Positions 42-13,097 are shown, numbered from the stretch's first letter. The stretch: 36,946 nucleotides of DNA from Marinitoga sp. 1197 (GCF_001021165.1 NZ_AZAY01000013.1:1-36946); one strand, 5' to 3'. Notes: a model not told the origin generated them from the letters alone. Translations and numbers: made by a program.

Positions 42-158
42 TGAGGGGTGCAGATACTGGATATGGAAACACGCGGAACCATGCCGAACCCGACCGTTAA
101 GCATATCCAGGCCGATGGTAGTATGGGAAATCCATGCGAGAGTAGGTAGCGCCCCTCT
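42..158 (+). rRNA. rrf: 5S ribosomal RNA
   Basis: This is a complete 5S rRNA of about 117 nt. The terminal helix is visible as GAGGGGTGC at the 5' end pairing with GCGCCCCTC at the 3' end. The conserved core CCGAACCCGACCGTTAAGC and the GCCGATGGTAGTATGGG block (loops C and E) are present, as is GAGAGTAGGTAGC near the 3' end. It follows the 23S tail and is followed by a strong intrinsic terminator, so it is the last gene of the rRNA operon. Ends are uncertain by one or two bases. Confidence 0.96.
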
Positions 159-211: not shown

Positions 212-241
212 TTGACAAAATATTAATAAAAGTGATATAAT
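212..241 (+). promoter_or_regulatory. Consensus promoter for the 248-362 RNA
   Basis: A perfect -35 (TTGACA, 212-217) and a perfect -10 (TATAAT, 236-241) are separated by 18 bp. No other promoter in the window matches the consensus so closely. It points to the structured RNA that follows and possibly, by read-through, to the operon starting at 537. The predicted start of transcription is near 248. Confidence 0.85.
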
Positions 242-247
242 AGACAT

Positions 248-362
248 GATGAGATATCTATGCCAACTGTAATCATATGGGAACTCCAAGCTTTATAGCT
301 TAGTCTGAAACTATCTTTCTCCATATGATATTTTTAAAGCAGCCTTCAACGGCTGCTTTTTT
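248..362 (+). ncRNA. Candidate structured small RNA or attenuator leader
   Basis: About 115 nt lie between a consensus promoter and an intrinsic terminator, with no convincing reading frame inside. A 9-bp outer helix (272-280 with 321-329) encloses a 5-bp hairpin (288-292/297-301) and a short 3-bp hairpin (302-304/310-312), giving a multi-branch fold. The terminator stem AAAGCAGCC/GGCTGCTTT (336-344/351-359) ends in a T run. I do not recognise the family. There is no T-box GGTGG motif, and it is shorter than a typical 6S RNA. It may be an independent small RNA or a riboswitch-like leader controlling the PqqD-like/ABC operon, for which I see no other good promoter. Boundaries are inferred. Confidence 0.55.
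336..362 (+). terminator. Intrinsic terminator of the 248-362 RNA
   Basis: A 9-bp stem (336-344/351-359) with loop TTCAAC is followed by a T run reaching 362. It lies about 175 bp upstream of the PqqD-like gene, so transcription of that operon must read through it or start downstream. Confidence 0.88.
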
Positions 363-536: not shown

Positions 537-776
537 ATGATAAAATATTATAGCAATAATTACGGTGAAAGTTATTTGTTTATTGATATTAATAATAATA
601 TATTATTATTAAAAAATGACTGGGCAGACATTGGAAAACTTTTATTAGATGGATATACAATAAATGAATTACTTTCGCTATTTAATGATTTTATTGATGA
701 CAAAGAAAAATTTAATATAAGCTGCAAAACTTTAATAGAAAAATTTAAGTCTATAGAGGTGGGTAATTTTGATTGA
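537..776 (+). CDS. PqqD-like small protein (putative RiPP recognition element)
   Basis: A 79-residue protein starting at the ATG at 537, chosen because GAGGAG (524-529) sits seven bases upstream. An ATG at 510 would add nine residues but has a poorly spaced ribosome site. The pattern is that of PqqD-type winged-helix domains: a beta-rich front (LFIDINNNILLL), then a small residue and the helix DIGKLLLDGYTINELL, then a last helix. In known systems these domains bind leader peptides of ribosomally made peptides, or act as small partners of modification or export machinery. Its stop overlaps the start of the ABC ATPase gene, implying translational coupling. No radical SAM enzyme or evident precursor gene is present. 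The assignment rests on pattern only; an unrelated small protein is possible. Confidence 0.5.
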   Translation: MIKYYSNNYGESYLFIDINNNILLLKNDWADIGKLLLDGYTINELLSLFNDFIDDKEKFNISCKTLIEKFKSIEVGNFD

Positions 777-1593
777 ACTTTCTGAAATTAATTTGAAAAT
801 TAAAAATAAAATTATTTTAGAAGACATAAATTTATCCTTTCCTGATAAAAAAACAATTGGCGTAGTAGGGAAAAATGGTTCTGGCAAAAGTACACTTTTA
901 AAAATAATGGCTGGAATTATAAAACCCACGAATGGTAAGATTAGTGTCCTGAACTATGTTCCGTATAAAAGAAGCAAAGATTTTTTGAAAAAAATTTCTT
1001 TTGTTAATCCTCAAAAAGGGTTTCTTGATTATTCGTTACCTGCTATTGACTTTTATAAATTTTTATCTAAAGTTTACAAAATAAATAAGGAAGAATTTGA
1101 AAATAAAATTAATTATCTTGGAAAGATATTAGATATAGAAAAAAAGATTTATCAACCTGTTAGGTTATTATCTTTTGGTGAAAGAGTAAAGTGTGAAATT
1201 TTAGCTAAATTATTACATTCTCCAAAACTAATTTTTTTGGATGAACCATTTATAGGATTAGATATTGATACGAAAAAAAAATTAATTGAGTTTTTAAAAA
1301 TTCAAAAAAAAGAAGATCGCACTATTTTTATTGTCACACATGAAATTAACGTTCTATCTGAAATTGTTGATGAACTAATAATATTGGATAAAGGAAGAGT
1401 GTTAAGAAAAATTGATGAAAAAGAAATCGAAAAATTCAAGAAATTAAAAAAAATTATTTATGTATTTTCTGACGATTCGACAAAAAGTGAAATCATACAT
1501 GAATCAAAAATTCAGCATATTTCTCTAAAAAATATTAACTCAATTCAAATAAATGATATTACAATTGAAGATATATTGAAGGAGTTAATATAA
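769..1593 (+). CDS. ABC exporter ATP-binding protein, COG4586-like
   Basis: A 274-residue cytoplasmic ATPase that would drive export through the two permeases encoded next. Walker A is GKNGSGKST (34-42). The signature is the variant LSFGER, Walker B is LIFLDEP followed by the D-loop GLD, and the switch histidine is in VTHE. The LSFGER form and the stretch before GLD resemble ATPases that pair with ABC-2 family 6 permeases. About 70 residues after the H-loop form an accessory C-terminal region. The start is TTG at 769, supported by GAGGTGGG seven bases upstream, and it lies inside the end of the PqqD-like gene. The stop overlaps the next ATG by one base. Substrate unknown. Confidence 0.88.
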   Translation: MIELSEINLKIKNKIILEDINLSFPDKKTIGVVGKNGSGKSTLLKIMAGIIKPTNGKISVLNYVPYKRSKDFLKKISFVNPQKGFLDYSLPAIDFYKFLSKVYKINKEEFENKINYLGKILDIEKKIYQPVRLLSFGERVKCEILAKLLHSPKLIFLDEPFIGLDIDTKKKLIEFLKIQKKEDRTIFIVTHEINVLSEIVDELIILDKGRVLRKIDEKEIEKFKKLKKIIYVFSDDSTKSEIIHESKIQHISLKNINSIQINDITIEDILKELI

Positions 1594-2333
1594 TGGAATA
1601 TTTAGAATACAGCAAATTTTTATTAAAAAGATTAAAAATTTATAAAATAAATTGGTACTTGTATATTTTTCAAAATACTATTAATTTTTTCTTTTTATAC
1701 CTTTTTTTACAATTAGGTATAGGAGAAAAAAATGAAATAATACATTATTATTTTGCACTTTCTTTTTTTCTATCTCATATCATTCCCGTAATAAAACCGG
1801 GTTTTTTTAATTTAGTAAGAAACGGAGAATTAGATAATTTGATACTATTACCTATAAATAAAATTTTGTATTTTTCTGTTGTAGAAATTGTATATCCTTT
1901 GTATAATATTTTTTTAACTTTACCAATCATTTTTGTTTTTTCATTTATCTTCAATATTCGTTTTACTAATTTAATTATTTTGATAATTATTTTTCCTTTT
2001 GCATTGTTGTTATCTTCTCTAATTTCAATATTATTTAGTTTAAGCGCTTTTTGGTTAAAAAAAGGAGATTCACTTTCGTTTTGGTCATATAGTTTATTTA
2101 AAATTATTTCTGGTGGATTAATTCCGCTTAAATATTTCCCTCAAAAAATCCGAGCAATTTTTGAATTTTTGCCGTTTAATTATATAATAAATTTTCCTGG
2201 AGAATCGTTTGCTAAGGGCACACTTGATATTCAGGAGTTTTTAAAATTAGTGTTCTGGATTTTTATAATATTTTTAATTTCTCAATTGTTTTATAAATTT
2301 GCAATATCTAAATACGAAACTGCAGGTGGTTAA
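1593..2333 (+). CDS. ABC-2 type permease, first of a pair (PF06182-like)
   Basis: A 246-residue integral membrane protein with about six hydrophobic segments, for example around residues 25-42, 50-66, 105-125, 128-150 and 217-240. The cytoplasmic motif NGELDNLILLPIN and the C-terminus YETAGG are typical of ABC-2 family 6 permeases, which work as heteromeric pairs with one ATPase. The gene overlaps the ATPase stop by one base (TAATG) and ends two bases before the second permease, so the operon is tightly coupled. The cargo cannot be deduced from the sequence. Confidence 0.85.
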   Translation: MEYLEYSKFLLKRLKIYKINWYLYIFQNTINFFFLYLFLQLGIGEKNEIIHYYFALSFFLSHIIPVIKPGFFNLVRNGELDNLILLPINKILYFSVVEIVYPLYNIFLTLPIIFVFSFIFNIRFTNLIILIIIFPFALLLSSLISILFSLSAFWLKKGDSLSFWSYSLFKIISGGLIPLKYFPQKIRAIFEFLPFNYIINFPGESFAKGTLDIQEFLKLVFWIFIIFLISQLFYKFAISKYETAGG

Positions 2334-2334
2334 T

Positions 2335-3072
2335 ATGCTCATACAGAGTTTTTTAAATGGTATAAAAGTTAGAATATTGTTTTTAAAAGATACAATTTTA
2401 ATGATTTTTTGGGGAATTTTTGAATTATTAATGACAATTATATTTTTTTCAGTAATAAAAATCAATTTCAAAATGGAAATTTCTGATGAAAAAATGTTTT
2501 TGCTAATCGGAACGGCGTTTATTGTAGAAACTATCTATTATGCATTTTTTGGTTCTTCTCTTCTTAATTTATCAAACCTTGTTGTGGAAGGAAAATTAGA
2601 TAATTATATTTTACTACCTCGGAATATCAGCTGGATATTATCAATAATAAATATAGATTCCTTATATTTAATTACATTATTGCCGAATTTATATCTAATA
2701 TTAGTTTCTTATAACTGGAATATTGAAGACTTTTTTAAATATATTATTAATGTTTTTATTATGGTGCTAATAAGGTATTCTTTTCAATTAATAATTTCTT
2801 CTTTTAATTTTATCTTTATTAATGTAAAGTTGCTTGAAGATACTATTAATAACCTTTTTTCTTATTCATATTTGCCTAGAAATATTTATACATCTTTTTG
2901 GAAATATATTTTTATCATAATTCCTGTAAGCCTTTTTGCAAATATTCCTGTAGAAAGTCTTTTAGAAAAGAAATATATGATAGAATATCTTATATTTGGT
3001 ATTTTGTTACTTTTTATATCAAATATATTTTTTAAAAAAACATTAGAAAAATATATAAGTGCTGGTGGATAA
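2335..3072 (+). CDS. ABC-2 type permease, second of a pair (PF06182-like)
   Basis: A 245-residue membrane protein with about six hydrophobic segments, homologous in layout to the preceding permease. It carries VEGKLDNYILLPRN in the same place and ends in YISAGG. The ATG at 2335 is chosen over an in-frame start at 2299 because AGGTGG lies just upstream and an overlap with the previous gene is avoided. Its last 58 or so codons and the following terminator are repeated almost exactly at 11599-11802. A bidirectional terminator follows, facing the convergent lipoprotein operon. Confidence 0.85.
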   Translation: MLIQSFLNGIKVRILFLKDTILMIFWGIFELLMTIIFFSVIKINFKMEISDEKMFLLIGTAFIVETIYYAFFGSSLLNLSNLVVEGKLDNYILLPRNISWILSIINIDSLYLITLLPNLYLILVSYNWNIEDFFKYIINVFIMVLIRYSFQLIISSFNFIFINVKLLEDTINNLFSYSYLPRNIYTSFWKYIFIIIPVSLFANIPVESLLEKKYMIEYLIFGILLLFISNIFFKKTLEKYISAGG

Positions 3073-3101
3073 AAAACAGGTCTCAAAGAGAGACCTGTTT
3101 T
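2898..3101 (+). repeat. Direct repeat, copy 1 (permease 3' end plus terminator)
   Basis: These 204 bp recur at 11599-11802 with a constant offset of 8701 bp and no gaps. The only differences I find are GG at 2998-2999 versus AA in the copy. The repeat begins inside the second permease gene and ends at the T run of its terminator. Sequences outside are unrelated, except for a 12-bp block (TTATTTCATTAT) at the ends of both flanking minus-strand genes. Confidence 0.95.
3073..3101. terminator. Bidirectional terminator, copy 1
   Basis: A 9-bp stem (ACAGGTCTC/GAGACCTGT, 3076-3084/3090-3098) has an A run on the left and a T run on the right, so it can stop the plus-strand ABC operon and the minus-strand lipoprotein operon. 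The same hairpin recurs at 11774-11802. Confidence 0.9.
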
Positions 3102-3121
3102 CATTATTTCTAAAAAAACAT

Positions 3122-3460
3122 TTATTTCATTATTTCGGATATTTTTATTGTTATATTGGATTTTACTTCATAATTTTTTTCATATTTTTTTTCATTATAA
3201 TCTATTATAAACTTATATATTCCCGAATTTAACTCTATTTCTTTATATTTGCCACTTTTTAAATTTTTTATCTCTTGAATTTTTTCATTATCTTTATATA
3301 TAAAAAGATTTATATTTACCTCTTCACCTGTATTATAATATATATCATTAATCAATGTAACTTTAACTTTTGTTTGAAATATTGTGTTAAAATCAAAACT
3401 CATACAAGAAGAAAATATTAAAATGATTGTTATTAATAATATATAATATATTCTTTTCAT
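3122..3460 (-). CDS. Small predicted lipoprotein
   Basis: A 112-residue protein, the last gene of the lipoprotein operon. It has a basic N-terminus, a hydrophobic stretch and a lipobox-like IFSSC with Cys19, then about 90 beta-prone residues resembling a single Ig or transthyretin-like fold (KVKVTLINDIYYNTGEEVNI, then SGKYKEIELNSGIYKF). I choose ATG at 3460 over GTG at 3469 because GAGG, overlapping the previous stop, is then about eight bases away. It probably sits in the outer membrane facing the periplasm or the exterior. Family not recognised. Confidence 0.7.
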   Translation of the reverse strand: MKRIYYILLITIILIFSSCMSFDFNTIFQTKVKVTLINDIYYNTGEEVNINLFIYKDNEKIQEIKNLKSGKYKEIELNSGIYKFIIDYNEKKYEKNYEVKSNITIKISEIMK

Positions 3461-3470
3461 CCTATTCACC

Positions 3471-5096
3471 TCACTTAGAATTCCTTACTATTTCTTCAAA
3501 TACTTGAGTGAATTCTTCAACAGTCATGTTTTTATTTAATTTTATTTCTGTATTCGGTTTATTTAAATATATGTTATCTTTCAAAAGATCGTATATTGCT
3601 ATATTATTTTCTCCATATTCTATATATGCAAAACGGGCATAATTATCATAAAAATTTATTTTTGATATATTTGTTATATTAGATAAAGATAATTTATTAG
3701 ATGTTAAATTTACTATGTTTAACTTATATGCTCTTAAATATGGTAACTTTACATTGTATTTTAAATTCCCTGAAATATAGGATATAATAAAATCCGCTGG
3801 AATACTTGATCTCAAATCTATTTTATACAAATTTATCCCATTTTTCATAATTATATAATTTTCAGGTGATATATAAATATCTGTATTGTCATTAACTAAA
3901 GTACTGTCTCCCAAAAAATGAATTTTCATTTCACCATTTCCTGTAAATGTTTGTTCATTAGAATATGGAAATTCTAAAACTACAAGCGGAATCGTATAAT
4001 TTGCACTTACAACATTTGTAGCTCCTTGAGTTAAATCACTTATTACTAAGGTAGATTCTAAAGAAAAATCTTTAAGTATAATAAATGTTGAATTTTCATA
4101 TATATAGCCATCAATTATATCTCCATATGTTACTGTTGAAACATACGACTCCGAATTATCAATATCTGCATTTGTTACACCAACTAATTGAAAATCATTT
4201 GTCGTTCTATTTTCAAATAATGAAAATGCTGTTGCATTTGAAGATGTTTCAATATTTTTTGTTATTTTTAATTTTATAATTTTATTATCTTCTTTTTCTC
4301 CATACAATAATTTATCATTATTAAGAACAAAAGGCCCTTTTATATTTGACATATCTGAAATAATTGTTGTTGATGATAATGTGTCTCCATTTATTAAATT
4401 ATAATCTGATATTATAAGTTCTGTTTTATTAGTTGTTGTATTTTTTTGTTTATATAACACTTTATTTCCACTTAAAATCTTATAATACAAATTAGAAACA
4501 TCTAGAGAAATGTTTAAATCTGTTGGTTCTTTGCTCATATCTATTGTATTATCAAAAACTAAAAGTTTAGAGCTTTCATCTGAAACTGCAAACAAATTAT
4601 TTTTTTCATCAAATTGCAATGAATTCCATGTTTTTCCATTTTCTAAAATAATTTTGTTATATAATTGTTTTGTATATATGGATTGTGGCAAATCTTTCCC
4701 TTTGGGATACAATAATACTGTTCTATTATTATTATCAAATTTGAAACTTCCATTTAAATATACATTTCCTTCTTCACTATCACAAAAAACTGTTTTTAAA
4801 TTTTGATTATCAAATTTTTTTAGAATATCTGTATACCACAATGTTTTTTCCATTGAAGATACCCTTAAATAAGTTAAACTTGCATCACTATCTATCGTAA
4901 CTAATCCTGATACTACTTGTTTTCCTGACGAATCATAACTCACATACAAATGATTTTGATCAAGATTTATTAGATTTTTTTCTTCTGGTTTTTCTATAAA
5001 TGTTGGAGTTATAATTTCTGTTTTTGATTGATCAACACATCCAAATAAAATTAACAATAAAACAAAAAAAATTATAACGAATATACCTTTTTTCAC
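3471..5096 (-). CDS. Predicted lipoprotein, beta-propeller-like
   Basis: A 541-residue exported protein with a type II signal: MKKG, a hydrophobic run and lipobox LFGC with Cys20. The remainder is rich in short beta strands with recurring hydrophobic-turn-hydrophobic units (KLLVFDNT, KVLYKQKN, KLLYGEKE, NLYKIDLR), which suggests a beta-propeller, but I recognise no named family. The start is GTG at 5096: the motif TGAGGTGAAT supplies both the previous gene's stop and the ribosome site. The frame could open at TTG 5117, but that would put polar residues before the signal peptide. It is the third gene of a four-gene lipoprotein operon. Confidence 0.72.
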   Translation of the reverse strand: MKKGIFVIIFFVLLLILFGCVDQSKTEIITPTFIEKPEEKNLINLDQNHLYVSYDSSGKQVVSGLVTIDSDASLTYLRVSSMEKTLWYTDILKKFDNQNLKTVFCDSEEGNVYLNGSFKFDNNNRTVLLYPKGKDLPQSIYTKQLYNKIILENGKTWNSLQFDEKNNLFAVSDESSKLLVFDNTIDMSKEPTDLNISLDVSNLYYKILSGNKVLYKQKNTTTNKTELIISDYNLINGDTLSSTTIISDMSNIKGPFVLNNDKLLYGEKEDNKIIKLKITKNIETSSNATAFSLFENRTTNDFQLVGVTNADIDNSESYVSTVTYGDIIDGYIYENSTFIILKDFSLESTLVISDLTQGATNVVSANYTIPLVVLEFPYSNEQTFTGNGEMKIHFLGDSTLVNDNTDIYISPENYIIMKNGINLYKIDLRSSIPADFIISYISGNLKYNVKLPYLRAYKLNIVNLTSNKLSLSNITNISKINFYDNYARFAYIEYGENNIAIYDLLKDNIYLNKPNTEIKLNKNMTVEEFTQVFEEIVRNSK

Positions 5097-5106
5097 TTCA
5101 TTCACC

Positions 5107-6864
5107 TCACTTTTCAATTAACATTTTTATTGCCTGTCGTTTTAGCGTTTCTTTTTCATTTGAATTTAACAATCTTATAACAACCATTTTTTCACTATTT
5201 ACATTTGTTAAATCAATAATTCCATACAAAGGTTTATTTTCTATATCAAGACCTGAAAAGTACATATAAACACCAAAATCATCTGAAAATTTAGAATCTA
5301 TTTCTTTAAATTTATATGGAATTTTATTCATAACTGCTATATTTTTTACTTTTTCAAAATTAAGATTAATAGGCGTCATAAGCTTTGTTTTCATCATATT
5401 ACCTTCAATTCTAAGATTAATATCAGCAGCATCCTTAACTTCGCTTTCTTGAACTTTTTTAAATTCTATTGAATAATCTCTAGAAGTATTTAAATCAAAT
5501 CTTTTAATATATGAACCGTCCATCAAAACATTATTATCCTTGAAAGGCATTAATGCAAAATAATGTTTATTTAAAATCATTTTGACTTCTTCTTTTTCGT
5601 TTTCATTTTTTTCAAACAAAAATAATTCTTTTTTTGTAAACAAAGGTAAACCGTCGCTGTTATGTGGAATCACCAAAACTGCATAATATTTCACACTATT
5701 TTGATCAATTAAAGGTATTTGTACTTTATAATCAAGGATAATCTTTACATCATATTTAATACTCAATTCTGAAAACAAAATATAAGTTTTATTCTCACTA
5801 TATATTACACTATTAATAGCAGGTATATTTATACTTATATTTTTTTTAGATAAAGTTAACGTTCCACCTAACGAAACCTCTGAAGTTTTTGATATTTTTA
5901 TACCCTCTGAAGTGAACAACTTTAATTCTGTAAAATCTTTGCTATTTGGATCATTTAAATTAATATATTTCAATTTTGAAATATTTTTAGAATTATCAAG
6001 ATATACTAAATAACCAGATTTTGATAAAGAAATAGGATAAGAAACTTTTTCGCTTAAAGTATATAATTCTTTTATATTATTTATATTTTTAATCTTTTCT
6101 CCACTTTCTAATGATCCTGTTTCTCCCAATTTTCCAACATATATTTTATTATTAGCACTATATATTATTAAATTATTTATTATTACATAATAATCATTTA
6201 CATCAAAACTTCTTAATGTATTTTTTTCTGAATCATACAATCTATAATACTCCCCTTGCTCATAATCAAAAGCATATAACCCTTTATTTTCAGTATTTAT
6301 AAAATATAGCCATCCTGTAGAATCCATTTGTATAGGTTGCCATGAACTTGGAAATTTATTATTTCTTACAGTTAACACATTTACTTTTAAGTCTTCTGTT
6401 TCAGCTTCAGCATCTGGTATTTTTAATTTTGGATTTTTAGAAGCATTTTCCAAGAGCACTATTTTCCATACTCTACCACTGCTTTTTCCTATTGAAATTG
6501 CGAAATTACCAATTAAATAATAATTATCTGGATTAATTCTTAAGACATAATCTATAGAAAACTTTGTAAAAACAGAAGGTATATCTATCTCCACAGCTTT
6601 GCGGGATACTGATTCATCGTATATTGTTAATTCCTTTTTACCTTCAATTCCTGGAACAACCGAAACCTTTAAAAGTTGTTCTGTTGAATTATCAACAAAA
6701 ATTTTTTGATCTTTCCAAAAACTTTCAGCTTTGGACAAATTTTGTTGATTTTTAGAATGATCCTGATTTCCTGCAAATGGATTTAGAAAGGCTAATGAAC
6801 CACAACTTGAGAGCAAAAGTATTAACATAATAGCCAGAGAAATGTGTTTTAATAACTTTTTCAT
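5107..6864 (-). CDS. Predicted lipoprotein, beta-propeller-like
   Basis: A 585-residue lipoprotein whose N-terminus MKKLLKHISL is followed by a hydrophobic core and lipobox LLSSC with Cys21. A disordered linker (asparagine- and glutamine-rich, 30-45) precedes a long beta-rich body with strand-turn units such as GWLYFINTENKGLYAFDYE and NKIYVGKL, similar in style to the neighbouring proteins. The ATG at 6864 has a strong AGGAGGGG upstream. The gene lies 14 bases after the giant propeller gene and its stop lies just upstream of the next gene's start, so the genes are co-transcribed. Function unknown; a scaffold or ligand-binding role in the outer envelope is inference. Confidence 0.72.
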   Translation of the reverse strand: MKKLLKHISLAIMLILLLSSCGSLAFLNPFAGNQDHSKNQQNLSKAESFWKDQKIFVDNSTEQLLKVSVVPGIEGKKELTIYDESVSRKAVEIDIPSVFTKFSIDYVLRINPDNYYLIGNFAISIGKSSGRVWKIVLLENASKNPKLKIPDAEAETEDLKVNVLTVRNNKFPSSWQPIQMDSTGWLYFINTENKGLYAFDYEQGEYYRLYDSEKNTLRSFDVNDYYVIINNLIIYSANNKIYVGKLGETGSLESGEKIKNINNIKELYTLSEKVSYPISLSKSGYLVYLDNSKNISKLKYINLNDPNSKDFTELKLFTSEGIKISKTSEVSLGGTLTLSKKNISINIPAINSVIYSENKTYILFSELSIKYDVKIILDYKVQIPLIDQNSVKYYAVLVIPHNSDGLPLFTKKELFLFEKNENEKEEVKMILNKHYFALMPFKDNNVLMDGSYIKRFDLNTSRDYSIEFKKVQESEVKDAADINLRIEGNMMKTKLMTPINLNFEKVKNIAVMNKIPYKFKEIDSKFSDDFGVYMYFSGLDIENKPLYGIIDLTNVNSEKMVVIRLLNSNEKETLKRQAIKMLIEK

Positions 6865-6878
6865 TTAATAATCCCCTC

Positions 6879-9800
6879 CTATTTATTAAAATAATTTTTT
6901 ATTATATAATCTTCAGGTGTGTTTTTTCCTTCAATTTTAAGTGCATATAGATATCCATCTTTGCTACATATATATAACAAACCATCTTTAATAATTGGAC
7001 TTGATGAAATACCATAACCACTTTCAAATTTCCAGTCTATTTTTAAACTTTTATCTAATGCATACACAGTCGAATCTAAGCTTCCAAAATATATATTTCC
7101 ATTATCATCAAAAGTGGGGGTTGATATTATTCCACCATCTACTTTATAAATTTCAATTATTTTTCCATCTTTATCTAAAACATAAAAATTATGATCTAAA
7201 CTTCCAAAATATATATTTCCATTTTTATCTATACTTACCTTGGATTGAACAGCACTTTTAGTTTTAAATTTCCAAATTAAAGTGCCTTTATCTGAAATTT
7301 TATACAAATAATTATCATCACTTCCTATATAAATATTTCCATCTTTATCTACTGAAGGTGAAGATCTAATTGCTCCATTAGTTTTAAATTTCCAAATTAA
7401 AGTACCTTCTTTAGTTATATTATATAAATATGAATCTGCACTGGCAAATAGTATATTACCATTATTATAAAATGGAATTCCTGTAATATAATCATTCGCA
7501 AAAAATTTCCATTTTATTTTTCCATCTAACGTAAAACAATAAAAATTACCTTGATTATCCCCAAAATATATATTATTATCAATTACCAAAGGTGTGGATG
7601 TAATTTTATTATTTATTTTATATTTCCACAATATCTTTCCTTCTTTTGATACTGAAAAAAAGGTCCCAGCAGTGTTCCCAAAATATACATTTCCATTTTC
7701 ATCTACTCCTGCAGATCCTACTATTTCTCCATCTGTCAAGATTTTCCAATTTAGTTTCCCGGATATACTTAATGAATAAAAATGTTTATCATAACTACCA
7801 AAATATATATTATTATTAATTATCAAAGGCACGCTTTCAATCCAACCTTTTGTCTTGAAATTCCATTTTATTTTTCCATATGGATTTATTGTTCTAAATG
7901 TCCATAATGGACCTTCTTTTATACCATTTCTATTATCTCTAACTATTATTTTCCAATAATATTGTGTTTTGGGTTTTAATATTTCTTCAGGTTTATATTC
8001 TGAACTTTTTAGATTTTTAGCTACGAGAGTTAAATGTTCTGGTGTAGTTCCTAAATATATATCAAACCTTATTGGATCCCCATCCATATCGTATGATTGC
8101 CAAGAAAATTTTGTATATAAAGATACATCTTGTTGATTATTAAAAGGATATGGGTTATCCGGGCCTAACGGTAATGAATTTCTTACATTTTCTACTTTCC
8201 CTGTGTTATAATTATCTTTTTTAAATGCCGGCCATTCTGCTCTATCATTTATAGATTCATCTTCTACCATTAATGAATATAAATTTCCATTTATATCAGC
8301 TAATATTAATGCATTATTTTCTAATAAAAGATTAGTTCCCAAAATATTTCCAAGTTCTTTTCTCCACTTCAAATTCCCTTGATAATCTAAACAATATACA
8401 TTATAATCATAACTTGCAAAATATATTGTTTCATGATTTCCTATAATAGGTGTAGAAGTTATTATATATTCTGATTTAAATTTCCATTTTAATGTTCCAT
8501 CCGGATTTATTGCATATAAATATTGATCCCAACTTCCTATATAAACATTTCCATTTTCATCAATTATTGGCGAAGACTTAATATAACTTTTTGTTTTAAA
8601 GCTCCATTTTAAATTTCCTTGGTAATCAATTGCATATAAATACCCATCTTCCGACCCAAAATATATTATTTCTTTTTTATCTATTGCCGGTGCCTTTGAT
8701 ATCCTATTTTCTGATTTAAACTTCCACTTTAATGTTCCGTCTGGATTTATTGCATACAAATATCCATCCCAACTTCCTACATATATAGTACCATCTCTCC
8801 CCATAACAGGACTTCCACTAATTGAATTGTTCGTTTTAAATTTCCACTTTAATGTTCCATCTGGATTTATTGCATACAAATACCCATCCCAACTTCCTAC
8901 ATATACTATATTATCTTTATCAATAATAGGTGAAGAGGTTATTATATCACCTGTTTTGAATTTCCATTTTATTTCTCCATCAGAATTTATAGTATATAAA
9001 TACCCTTCATTATCTCCAAAATATATGTTCCCATTATAGTAAGAAGGTGAAGACCAAATCTTTTTATTTACTTTTATTTTCCAAATTAATATACCATCAG
9101 GGTTAAATTTATACAAATTTCCTCCATTATCTCCTATTATTATATTTCCATTCTCATCTAAAACTGGGCTTGTTTCAACCTTATTATTTAATTTATTAAT
9201 CCATTTTACAATAGGAGAAAATTTGATTTTTAAATCATATAAAACACTTTCAGAAATATTCCCTTTTTTATCTTTAGCTACAATTTTAATCTTATATTTT
9301 TTCCCCGGTCTTACTAATGGCAATACAGCTTTATTATTAGAATAATCTGAAAATATCTTTTTTAATGTTTTTTCATTAATCCCGATATATACATCATAAA
9401 CTAATTTGTCATTATCAATATCAGTAGCAATCCAACTAATTGTTGCATCATAACTTAACTCTGTATTTTTAGTTAATAAAATTGGCTTAGTTGGCAAATG
9501 TGATGTTTCAAAAGATTTAATTTCACTTATGTTTTTATTTCCATCTTCATCAAAAACCTCAACTTTCCAATAATATTTTTTACCTGGTAATAATGTTTTT
9601 TTCAACTGGTATTCGTTTTTATATAATCCCTTTTCTAATAAAGCTAAATTTTTCTTATCTTCACCAAAATAAATATTAAATACTAAATTTGTGCTATCTT
9701 TATCTTTTACTTCCCATTTTAAAATAGGATTTAACTCTATATTTTTAGCTTCATTCTGAGGATATATAACCTTCGGTTTTGAAGGTTTATATATAATTTT

Positions 9801-11243
9801 AAATTTATATATTGAACTTTCACTTTTAAACATTCCATCACTTGCCACAATTTTAATATAATAATCCTTTTTTCCTATTAAGTTATTAATATTAACCTCC
9901 TTTTTTAATAAATTTTTTTTAAATACTAATAAATCATTCTCATTATATCCATAATATACATCAAATGTAATCTGATCGTTATTTGGATCTGATCCATTCC
10001 ATTTTAGATTTAAATCACTTTCTATAACTGCAAAATTTTTATCTTCTGGATAAATAATTGTTGGTTTATTTGGGGGTAAGTTTAGATATTCTCTATTTAA
10101 ATAACCTTTTTCATATGGCCAAGTTAAACTATTATATTCACTTTTTAACGGAATTTCTATTATTTTATTATCCTTTGAAAGGCAATAAAGATTTCCGTCT
10201 GTATAATAGAGTTCATTGTTTAAGTCATCATTTAAAACATATTCTAATATTTTTTTATCACCAAAATTATAAATATTTATTGATTTATTTTTTCCTGTAA
10301 AAGACACATTATTCCCTAAAAGTAATATTTTTGTATTAATGTTTTTCGCTGGAATCTTACTCAATTCATTTCCATTTTTATCATATATATATATATTCTT
10401 ATTTGACGAAATATAAATTTTTTCATTTCTATCAATTAAAATATTAGATAAAAATGATACATTATCATAAATTTTATTCCAGATAATTTTACCGCTATTA
10501 TCTATTGAATATAAAATATTATTGCTACTTAATACATAAATATTACCTCGTAAATCTGTTGCAAAATTCCCTTTTGCACTTCCACTTATTTTGGAAACCC
10601 ATAATTTTTCACCATTACTATCAAAAGAATAAATATTACCATTTGCATCTCCAAAAATTATGTTTTTATTGTATGTTATTATTAAATTAGATGTTATTGT
10701 TGTATTAAGCTTTTTCTTCCAAAAAATTTTATACTCTTTTAATTTATATATTGTTCCTATATCCGTCAATATATATAAATCATTTGAAGGGTGAATCGCT
10801 AAAGAGTAAATATTCTCAAAAAAATCTTTAGAAAATATCTTTTTTCCTTTTAAATCATATACATACAACATTGTTCCATTAGAAAAAACTATGTTTCCGT
10901 TATAATCAATCAAAAAAGAACTGAATATTGTGGATTTATATCTATTAGAAAATATTATATTTTTATTTTTTAATGAATAAAAATATACACTATTCATATC
11001 ATGGAAAATCAAAATATTATTATAAACTAAAAAATTTCCATTTATATCTTTTTTTAAATCATATTTATTTACTTTAAATTCTTTAATTAACTCAATATCA
11101 AATTTGACATTTTTAAGAGTTTTAGACGAGTTGTTTTGAATATTTATTTGAGATTTATTTGCTTTAAAAGGTATCAAAGAACATCCATTAAAAAAAATCA
11201 AAAAAGTTACAAATAATAAAATATACAAATATTTGTTTTTCAT
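6879..11243 (-). CDS. Giant lipoprotein with three PQQ-type propellers and four FnIII-like modules
   Basis: This 1454-residue protein has lipobox FFNGC (Cys21). A diverged propeller spans about 60-370. Three fibronectin-III-like modules follow at about 390-485, 486-582 and 583-675, with hallmarks such as PNKPTIIYP, LKWNGSDPNNDQITFDVYYG and GKKYYWKV. A regular propeller covers about 680-995. The closing motif WPAFKKDNYNTGK, typical of PQQ-propeller proteins, is at 1004-1016. A fourth FnIII-like module (about 1024-1120) and a third propeller (about 1126-1437) end the protein. Propeller repeats are about 40 residues, as in GSWDGYLYAINPDGTLKWKF. The architecture suggests an extracellular or periplasmic binding or adhesive protein; BamB-like folds share the repeat, but length and FnIII modules argue against BamB. 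A strong AAAGGGGGA precedes the ATG. First gene of its operon. Confidence 0.88.
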   Translation of the reverse strand: MKNKYLYILLFVTFLIFFNGCSLIPFKANKSQINIQNNSSKTLKNVKFDIELIKEFKVNKYDLKKDINGNFLVYNNILIFHDMNSVYFYSLKNKNIIFSNRYKSTIFSSFLIDYNGNIVFSNGTMLYVYDLKGKKIFSKDFFENIYSLAIHPSNDLYILTDIGTIYKLKEYKIFWKKKLNTTITSNLIITYNKNIIFGDANGNIYSFDSNGEKLWVSKISGSAKGNFATDLRGNIYVLSSNNILYSIDNSGKIIWNKIYDNVSFLSNILIDRNEKIYISSNKNIYIYDKNGNELSKIPAKNINTKILLLGNNVSFTGKNKSINIYNFGDKKILEYVLNDDLNNELYYTDGNLYCLSKDNKIIEIPLKSEYNSLTWPYEKGYLNREYLNLPPNKPTIIYPEDKNFAVIESDLNLKWNGSDPNNDQITFDVYYGYNENDLLVFKKNLLKKEVNINNLIGKKDYYIKIVASDGMFKSESSIYKFKIIYKPSKPKVIYPQNEAKNIELNPILKWEVKDKDSTNLVFNIYFGEDKKNLALLEKGLYKNEYQLKKTLLPGKKYYWKVEVFDEDGNKNISEIKSFETSHLPTKPILLTKNTELSYDATISWIATDIDNDKLVYDVYIGINEKTLKKIFSDYSNNKAVLPLVRPGKKYKIKIVAKDKKGNISESVLYDLKIKFSPIVKWINKLNNKVETSPVLDENGNIIIGDNGGNLYKFNPDGILIWKIKVNKKIWSSPSYYNGNIYFGDNEGYLYTINSDGEIKWKFKTGDIITSSPIIDKDNIVYVGSWDGYLYAINPDGTLKWKFKTNNSISGSPVMGRDGTIYVGSWDGYLYAINPDGTLKWKFKSENRISKAPAIDKKEIIYFGSEDGYLYAIDYQGNLKWSFKTKSYIKSSPIIDENGNVYIGSWDQYLYAINPDGTLKWKFKSEYIITSTPIIGNHETIYFASYDYNVYCLDYQGNLKWRKELGNILGTNLLLENNALILADINGNLYSLMVEDESINDRAEWPAFKKDNYNTGKVENVRNSLPLGPDNPYPFNNQQDVSLYTKFSWQSYDMDGDPIRFDIYLGTTPEHLTLVAKNLKSSEYKPEEILKPKTQYYWKIIVRDNRNGIKEGPLWTFRTINPYGKIKWNFKTKGWIESVPLIINNNIYFGSYDKHFYSLSISGKLNWKILTDGEIVGSAGVDENGNVYFGNTAGTFFSVSKEGKILWKYKINNKITSTPLVIDNNIYFGDNQGNFYCFTLDGKIKWKFFANDYITGIPFYNNGNILFASADSYLYNITKEGTLIWKFKTNGAIRSSPSVDKDGNIYIGSDDNYLYKISDKGTLIWKFKTKSAVQSKVSIDKNGNIYFGSLDHNFYVLDKDGKIIEIYKVDGGIISTPTFDDNGNIYFGSLDSTVYALDKSLKIDWKFESGYGISSSPIIKDGLLYICSKDGYLYALKIEGKNTPEDYIIKNYFNK
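8715..8903 (-). repeat. Near-identical 120-bp coding repeats in the giant propeller gene
   Basis: Residues 781-803 and 821-843 are identical at protein level (YVGSWDGYLYAINPDGTLKW and onwards) and nearly identical in DNA, spaced exactly 120 bp. A third close copy lies at residues 901-923. These are the least diverged propeller blades, suggesting recent duplication or gene conversion within the repeat array. Confidence 0.8.
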
Positions 11244-11296
11244 TTGATATCCCCCTTTATAATAATTAATTTTATTTTAGTTATTTATTTAAATAT

Positions 11297-11342
11297 CGAA
11301 TAATTAAAAATATTACTTAAATTGTCATATATTTTTAATTCG
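11297..11342 (-). promoter_or_regulatory. Inverted repeat in the leader of the lipoprotein operon
   Basis: A 10-bp perfect inverted repeat (11304-11313 with 11329-11338) is extended by an outer CGAA/TTCG pair (11297-11300/11339-11342). It lies between the predicted promoter and the giant lipoprotein gene. It may be an operator or a leader hairpin; no T run follows on the minus strand that would make it a clear terminator. Confidence 0.4.
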
Positions 11343-11380
11343 AACTTTTGATCGTTTAGAGAATATATCTATTTATTTTT

Positions 11381-11409
11381 ATTATACCAAAAAATAACCT
11401 AAAAGTTAA
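11381..11409 (-). promoter_or_regulatory. Predicted promoter of the lipoprotein operon
   Basis: Reading the minus strand, -35 TTAACT (11409-11404) and -10 TATAAT (11386-11381) are 17 bp apart, with an extended -10 TGG directly before the hexamer. The transcript would start near 11374, giving a leader of about 130 nt before the ATG at 11243. Confidence 0.65.
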
Positions 11410-11492
11410 CTCGATTTAATTTTTTTGCAAATGGTGAAATAAAAATGCAGAAAAAGAGGAAAATAGAAGGATACCAAAAATGAAGAAAGTAA

Positions 11493-11598
11493 AACATAAC
11501 AATAACTAGGAATAATAAGGATGGTGGGATAAAACCAAATTTTTCTGAATTAGAAAGAATATGAAGAAAAACCAAAAAAAGAAATAAGAAAAAATAAA
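11493..11598 (+). pseudogene. Possible transposase remnant (IS21 IstA-like N-terminus)
   Basis: A short degenerate frame encodes KDGGIKPNFSELERI before a stop (11562-11564). One base out of frame it continues as YEEKPKKEIRKNKLE up to the edge of the direct repeat. The pattern IKPNFSEL followed by a KP-rich basic stretch recalls the start of IS21-type transposases, with the helix-turn-helix between them deleted. The match is short, from memory, and the AT-rich DNA is permissive, so this is a suggestion only. In the rest of 11410-11492 I see only purine-rich DNA without signals. Confidence 0.25.
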
Positions 11599-11802
11599 TT
11601 GGAAATATATTTTTATCATAATTCCTGTAAGCCTTTTTGCAAATATTCCTGTAGAAAGTCTTTTAGAAAAGAAATATATGATAGAATATCTTATATTTAA
11701 TATTTTGTTACTTTTTATATCAAATATATTTTTTAAAAAAACATTAGAAAAATATATAAGTGCTGGTGGATAAAAAACAGGTCTCAAAGAGAGACCTGTT
11801 TT
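11599..11802 (+). repeat. Direct repeat, copy 2 (truncated permease 3' end plus terminator)
   Basis: This is an almost exact copy of 2898-3101. It keeps the last 58 or so codons and stop of the second ABC permease (to about 11773) and the following hairpin terminator, but has no gene front, start or promoter. It is therefore a 5'-truncated pseudogene copy. It abuts the convergent gene ending at 11805. With copy 1 it brackets about 8.5 kb holding the lipoprotein operon. Confidence 0.95.
11774..11802. terminator. Bidirectional terminator, copy 2
   Basis: The same 9-bp hairpin as at 3073-3101 with A and T runs on either side. Here its working direction is probably the minus strand, where it lies two bases beyond the stop of the 11805-13097 gene. 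Confidence 0.88.
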
Positions 11803-11804
11803 TG

Positions 11805-13097
11805 TTATTTCATTATAAAATTGAATTCAATTATATTTTTTCCATCAGGTGTTTTTGAAGCAATAGCGCTTCCTAATCCTCCAAATTCACCATCAAGGCC
11901 TTCAACACCAAAAAAATCTTTTAAAAATGAAATTAAAGGTTTTAAATCAAGAAAAAATGCTCCAATATTAGCCTCTGGTATTTTGGACTTTAATTCTTTA
12001 TACAATATATTATTGGATAATTTTTGAGAAGAATTTTCATATTTTTTTAATTCAATTTTGTTTAAATTTGATATGTATAAAAAATCATCTTTTTTCCATA
12101 TATACATAATCATGCTTTTTTCATTTACAGTTTTACTTATTTTTATATAATCTTTATCTAATTTTTCTTTTGTAATATCTTCAGGTATTATTTTTTCAAT
12201 TTCATCAAAAGAACTATTGGTTTTAACCTTAATTTTCATAGCAAAATTTGATTCAATATCTCCTGTTTCATCATTCATTGATAAATTTATAGTTCCTGTT
12301 TGTTCAGCCCAATCTGATTTCGATAAAATCGAGTTGATTAAGTCTTCTGGAAGATTTATGCCAAATTTATTTAAATTCAGAGACGATCCATCAGGTATAT
12401 ATGTTGTTTTTGAATAATATAAACCAAAAAATTCTGAGCTGTCAATGTTAACATTTTTGGGTGTGATTTGTGAATCAGTTAATAGGTTAAATTTACTATA
12501 TAGGTAATTATCTTTTATATATGAAAAACCATATCCATTAAGTGTAGAAGTATTAATTTCTTCATAAATACCTGTTTCATTATATCTTTTTTTTGGTATA
12601 AAGTTTAATTTTGAGTTTTCGTAAGCATTTTTATTTGTAGTTATTATTAAATAATCCTGTAATTCACTTTGTTTTACAATATAATAAAAATTTATACCTG
12701 TATCTTCGGGCATTAAAGCATCTATGACTTTACTGAAAACTTCTATATATTTTTTTCCATCGTCTAAAGGTCCCAATACAATTCCAAATTCATAATTATT
12801 ATTCTGTGGTTCAATAACAAATATTCCAACGTTTTTTTCAAATCCCGAATAGACTTCATCACTATTTAAATCAAGGGATTGGATATATGCATCTATCATT
12901 CCGGTTATCAGCGTTTCAGCATAAGTTGGATCATCCAGTATCTTTCCAAATATAGGAACGGTTTTTAAATCGTCGTATACGGTTTTTGCATTATTTAATA
13001 CGATAACTGCTTTTGAATCTTGAGGAATAACTTCGTAAATGTTGGAAAAAACGGTTAATGATAATATCATAATTAAAAATAATAAAATTTTCTTCAT
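11805..13097 (-). CDS. Exported protein of unknown function (DUF3352-like pattern)
   Basis: A 430-residue protein with a cleavable signal peptide (MKKILL, hydrophobic core, VFS before N19). The mature start IPQDSKAVIVLNNAK and the later GAFFLDLKPL recall the duplicated alpha/beta layout of bacterial DUF3352-type exported proteins; this is a pattern match without a search. It has no lipobox, so it is probably periplasmic. The ATG has GGAGGTGG upstream. It has its own predicted promoter in the gap after flgJ and ends at the bidirectional terminator inside the duplicated segment. Confidence 0.65.
   Translation of the reverse strand: MKKILLFLIMILSLTVFSNIYEVIPQDSKAVIVLNNAKTVYDDLKTVPIFGKILDDPTYAETLITGMIDAYIQSLDLNSDEVYSGFEKNVGIFVIEPQNNNYEFGIVLGPLDDGKKYIEVFSKVIDALMPEDTGINFYYIVKQSELQDYLIITTNKNAYENSKLNFIPKKRYNETGIYEEINTSTLNGYGFSYIKDNYLYSKFNLLTDSQITPKNVNIDSSEFFGLYYSKTTYIPDGSSLNLNKFGINLPEDLINSILSKSDWAEQTGTINLSMNDETGDIESNFAMKIKVKTNSSFDEIEKIIPEDITKEKLDKDYIKISKTVNEKSMIMYIWKKDDFLYISNLNKIELKKYENSSQKLSNNILYKELKSKIPEANIGAFFLDLKPLISFLKDFFGVEGLDGEFGGLGSAIASKTPDGKNIIEFNFIMK

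Follow-up and report, generated by a model that had tools for sequence, protein, structure and literature searches.

The window analysed here is the whole of contig C13 (36,946 nt) of the Marinitoga sp. 1197 draft genome (2.27 Mb, 51 contigs). It opens with the last part of an rRNA operon and presents an ABC-2 export operon and, convergent with it, a single minus-strand operon encoding four proteins with lipobox-like N-termini. The latter operon is the cargo enclosed by two direct repeat copies, R1 and R2. The features are as follows:

44–157 (+): 5S rRNA, end of the rRNA operon at the contig start
510–776 (+): small ORF ahead of the ABC ATPase
769–3072 (+): ABC-2 export operon, by Pfam
769–1593 (+): ABC ATPase (PF00005)
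1593–2333 (+): ABC permease 1 (PF06182)
2335–3072 (+): ABC permease 2 (PF06182)
2898–3110 (+): repeat copy 1 (R1), with permease 3′ end, terminator and 7 bp of the X end (TTATTTC)
3073–3101 (+): bidirectional terminator, copy 1, now common to the ABC and lipoprotein operons
3111–11598 (no strand): putatively inserted segment of 8,488 bp between R1 and R2
3122–3469 (−): 115-aa lipoprotein, lipobox-like FSSC, no Pfam match
3471–5117 (−): 548-aa lipoprotein, LFGC, no Pfam match
5107–6864 (−): 585-aa lipoprotein, LSSC, no Pfam match
6879–11243 (−): 1454-aa lipoprotein, largest of the four, with PQQ/BamB-type beta-propeller repeats and fn3 domains
11381–11409 (−): promoter-like site TTAACT-17-TATAAT of the lipoprotein operon, from sequence
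about 11426–11598 (+): IS21-family remnant comprising the left end and a degraded start of istA, truncated at 11598
11599–11811 (+): repeat copy 2 (R2), with permease 3′ end lacking the gene front, terminator and X end
11773–11803 (+): bidirectional terminator, copy 2, serving X and homologous to the X terminator of congener G005
11805–13097 (−): gene X, 430-aa exported protein, conserved genus-wide beside flgI/flgH/flgA

Directly after the 5S gene, positions 212–359 (+) hold a perfect TTGACA-18-TATAAT promoter, about 100 nt of sequence and a GCAGCC terminator. This candidate small RNA contains a 9-bp inverted repeat (ATCATATGG/CCATATGAT) and matched no Rfam family at threshold; terminators resembling its own are also found near 5S in congeners G003, G004 and G005.

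Positions 2898–3101 recur at 11599–11802 (204 bp, offset 8701 bp) with only two adjacent mismatches, GG/AA at 2998–2999, just as the initial annotation had reported, and the match can be carried on to 213 bp across two further mismatches (3102–3103) and a final TTATTTC, for 4 mismatches and 98.1% identity. Both length and identity are far above chance and the repeat has no further copy in the genome. The same annotation took the second copy for a duplicated end rather than a paralog, which is borne out: R2 has no gene front, and its permease 3′ end is the sole second permease copy in the genome. What had been listed between the copies, one four-lipoprotein minus-strand operon with its promoter and a possible transposase remnant, is likewise recovered as the operon, the promoter-like site and the IS21 remnant.

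Within R2, TTATTTC corresponds to the X stop codon plus four bases of X's last codons, and since R1 ends in the same letters it keeps a trace of X. This extension is short, seven matches having a chance probability of about 2.5e-4, and G005 reads ATTATTTC at the same position. M. lauensis has G as the first letter of the GG/AA site, as in R1, which indicates that the gene-less R2 is the altered copy. At the left border of R2, TTGGA is common to the istA-like sequence and the permease. In a crossover model, recombination between R1 and R2 would take out 8701 bp without damage to permease or X, and homologous deletion of the island across the 213-bp repeats is possible.

Gene X adjoins 5S in five of six congeners (G001, G003, G004, G005 and G006, G003 being M. 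lauensis) and the island is missing at the X junction in all six. The terminator between 5S and X varies by genome; the G005 terminator shows homology to the duplicated one, with an alignment that continues into X and a shuffle p of 0.001 for the terminator only. Among 103 genomes of the class, the ABC permease has clear matches only in Marinitoga sp. 1197 and M. lauensis, and in M. lauensis the ABC operon lies at another location and ends in an unrelated terminator. A terminator homologous to that of X in G005 and unlike that of the M. lauensis ABC operon would have belonged to X, the ABC operon having come to use it. The repeated end had been assigned in full to the ABC operon, an attribution that holds for the permease 3′ end and fails for the terminator, which is ancestrally X's. 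Together with the X trace in R1, this origin suggests that both repeat copies descend from an ABC–terminator–X junction. From these comparisons we infer that ABC–terminator–X is the older order and that the lipoprotein operon is a later arrival.

Direct repeats of at least 60 bp were sought in 811 kb (36%) of the Marinitoga sp. 1197 genome. After removal of dispersed families, among them repeats of about 20 copies, exactly three two-copy pairs were left: the window locus and two loci on contig C48.

G000:C48:102163–105662 (L158 7163–10662): xseB locus, 255-bp repeat of the xseB 3′ end, 98.4% identity
G000:C48:52387–54035 (L155 14387–16035): ArsR locus, 123-bp repeat (core about 104) of the ArsR gene 3′ end and terminator

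The xseB-locus cargo encodes a PqqD-domain radical SAM-SPASM protein, an ABC exporter and short precursor-like ORFs that end in Cys-rich motifs, and is likely a ribosomal-peptide cluster. The ArsR locus holds three small ORFs, of which one has weak Gly-zipper matches, and no transposase. Each of the three cargoes runs antisense to the gene that supplied the duplicated end. For both C48 loci M. lauensis presents contiguous empty sites, the joined flanks scoring 331 and 312, against no more than 300 and 234 for alignments that retain the insert, and the same next gene follows about 85 bp after xseB and about 46 bp after arsR.

An empty site of the kind that the initial annotation proposed looking for in relatives thus exists at each of the two sister loci; the exact ABC–terminator–X site is not seen among the six congeners, where those with X in place are without the ABC operon there. 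The proposal of an insertion by which the target's end was rebuilt is well supported by the absence of the island at this junction in all six congeners, the terminator traced to X, the X end in R1 and the two sister insertions with M. lauensis empty sites.

A dispersed repeat (TGTCTAAAAAGTCAAATTCACTCAG...) of about 20 copies in the sample (G000:C48:22998–23133, L154 3998–4133; C48:86096; C10:33788; C2:35184) is apparently a small non-coding repeat family. Candidate repeats in G004 were set aside as a GC-rich pair, presumably a cobalamin riboswitch. In M. lauensis, a GGDEF gene is flanked on either side by a 356-bp copy of a tRNA cluster, the tRNAs having been recognised by eye; no IS is involved in this case.

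The IS21-type remnant has degraded relatives elsewhere in the genome, one of them beside an istB gene (PF01695, 8.5e-76). It resembles the IS21 family in its left end and degraded istA start at the cargo edge and differs in being a single-sided fragment, the other edge having no IS21 sequence. Target duplications of IS21 are short, so this fragment is not the maker of the 213-bp duplication. A composite transposon or composite IS21 was rejected given one fragment in place of two flanking IS copies. Searches of all island proteins against Pfam and NCBIfam returned no active recombinase or transposase other than the IS21 fragment, and no plasmid or phage genes are found among the cargo proteins. 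An integrase-type genomic island was also discarded: the cargo proteins include no integrase, in agreement with the earlier remark that none is seen, and the junction presents no att site and no tRNA. Terminal inverted repeats or common ends sought across the three cargoes of the genome gave none above shuffles.

In the class of 103 genomes, a full-length relative of the 585-aa lipoprotein is found only in congener G002, which carries the whole operon directly 3′ of a 5S gene, in the opposite orientation relative to rRNA compared with Marinitoga sp. 1197; repeats flanking this copy were sought and none found. The earlier suggestion of a mobile or excisable module is not supported: the island has no integrase, transposase, attachment site, terminal inverted repeat or shared ends, and G002 holds the operon elsewhere, in the other orientation and without flanking repeats. 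The operon is missing from the other five of the six congeners examined, which are closer to Marinitoga sp. 1197 than G002 is in their flg and X proteins. A seven-genome phylogeny, sampled and with few informative branches, does not group Marinitoga sp. 1197 with G002. No earlier site of the operon was found in these comparisons. A foreign composition was considered and dismissed: GC3 of the lipoprotein genes (0.12–0.15) resembles that of the neighbours (0.13–0.21) and GC is ordinary, with no sign of recent foreign origin. The AlphaFold model of the 585-aa lipoprotein (pLDDT 41) is too low for use.

Insertion with long target duplication (Nobusato et al. 2000, Gene 259:99) is known with restriction-modification genes, which are often its cargo in Helicobacter pylori (PMC1643837; PMC3031569). 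The Marinitoga loci share with this class a recombinase-less gene block between long direct target repeats, no short fixed duplication and, at the two sister loci, a single-copy empty allele. They differ from it in carrying lipoproteins, a peptide-maturation operon and small ORFs instead of restriction-modification genes, and at the window locus the empty site is inferred. By Pfam the cargo of the window locus consists of lipoproteins only, restriction-modification genes being a frequent and non-defining trait of the class, and a long variable target repeat surrounds it (213 bp, 98.1%, with permease 3′ end, terminator and X end). Read from its sequence, the window locus matches the pattern of insertion with long target duplication.

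In this genus, long duplications also accompany an IS1634-family element (NF033559, 1e-112), of which M. lauensis has copies at several sites (G003:C7:140001–540000, L173–L192) with target duplications of 91–416 bp. One M. lauensis IS of this family (G003:C9, L079 6846–9104) lies between 167-bp perfect copies of the X 3′ end and terminator, which indicates that the same spot was hit independently by a long-duplication insertion in two species. At this IS1634-flanked site, M. lauensis X reads as two overlapping frames. Direct repeats of IS1634 and IS1549 are long and variable, 8–514 bp (PMC2266710; Vilei 1999; Plikaytis 1998), and no mechanistic model has been proposed for them (PMC2266710). 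The likeness lies in duplications of tens to hundreds of bases and in the IS copy at the same X terminator; the difference is that the three cargoes of Marinitoga sp. 1197 have neither transposase nor IS ends. A tblastn search for an IS1634-type transposase across 811 kb of the genome was negative and IS ends of the CCTGAGTTTGACA type are absent from the borders of the three cargoes, and therefore the link of these three insertions to IS1634 is only suggestive.

We consider it probable that an 8.5-kb operon (four lipoproteins, promoter and dead IS21 fragment) was inserted at the 3′ junction of ABC and X, duplicating 213 bp of target. This history would start from 5S next to X with X's own terminator, an arrangement shown in relatives; the ABC operon would then have arrived upstream and adopted that terminator, as terminator homology suggests. 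The lipoprotein operon may next have been taken up where the DNA was broken twice or with a wide stagger, and copying of the gap on each side would leave the permease 3′ end, the terminator and the X stop on both sides of the cargo, with R2 drifting afterwards as a non-coding remnant. ABC, X and the terminators all come through the duplication intact, so that such insertions can survive. The long duplication could stem from a captured break, from template switching or from transposition of the IS1634 kind directed at the cargo; among these mechanisms our first choice, held with slightly less than even confidence, is capture at a broken end. Both the order of events and break-and-copy are reconstructions, and the latter leaves no diagnostic mark in the sequence.

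Other origins of the R1–cargo–R2 arrangement were weighed. An IS1634-type element, or its transposase acting on non-IS DNA, may have made the 213-bp duplication, with the IS subsequently lost or exchanged for the lipoprotein operon. The size fits the 91–416 bp range of M. lauensis, where a perfect 167-bp case sits at the same X terminator, and the 8–514 bp repeats of IS1549/IS1634, for which no model exists (PMC2266710); with no CCTGAGTTTGACA-type ends or terminal inverted repeat at the three cargoes and no such transposase in 811 kb, we regard this origin as unlikely. Single-crossover (Campbell-type) integration of a circle bearing the R segment and the lipoprotein operon would require homologous recombination only and would yield exactly R–cargo–R; however, the circle must already have held the ABC–X junction, so that the IS21/permease junction was formed earlier, and the cargo has no plasmid or phage genes, which makes such an integration distinctly unlikely.

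Less probable still is a history in which the ABC region was duplicated in tandem and the second ABC front then lost, R2 being what remained. R2 does adjoin the IS21 remnant, and IS elements are a frequent cause of deletions next to them, but more steps are required, the sister loci show simple empty sites, and an R1 ending inside the X end is not expected from duplicating ABC and cargo. We give very little credence to an assembly artefact, even for a 51-contig draft in which the window is a whole contig: four positions distinguish the copies, whose flanks also differ, repeat collapse breaks contigs and does not invent a second copy, and the pattern recurs at two independent loci for which natural empty sites exist.

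Integrases, transposases and homologous recombination receive the credit for most gene gain. Three unrelated operons in one genome bear the signature of a different route, that of long target duplication, and two of them have natural empty sites. At least three transposase-less insertions of this kind in Marinitoga sp. 1197 would point to a recurring, unexplained route of gene gain. Host genes and terminators being spared by the duplication, such insertions are nearly cost-free and easily overlooked. With considerable doubt, we speculate that the genus has an undescribed process that pastes non-mobile operons into gene 3′ ends with duplications of 100–255 bp, perhaps by IS1634-like chemistry. 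If true, its cargoes would comprise lipoproteins, a radical-SAM peptide cluster and small Gly-zipper ORFs, with no transposase of their own. Since IS1634 elements occur in the same genus, both long-duplication questions are testable in one group of organisms.

The genus has three rRNA operons whose 3′ neighbours are mostly conserved (mfd; MCP..coaX; X-flg). In G002, two large beta-propeller lipoproteins (6094–10479 in L076 and 5913–10301 in L074) each lie directly 3′ of an rRNA operon. A module of binding protein, hybrid histidine kinase and HD-domain regulator (G000:C2, L135 7942–12246) is found in the genus only in Marinitoga sp. 1197 and G002; it adjoins the lipoprotein operon in G002 and is unlinked to it in Marinitoga sp. 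1197.
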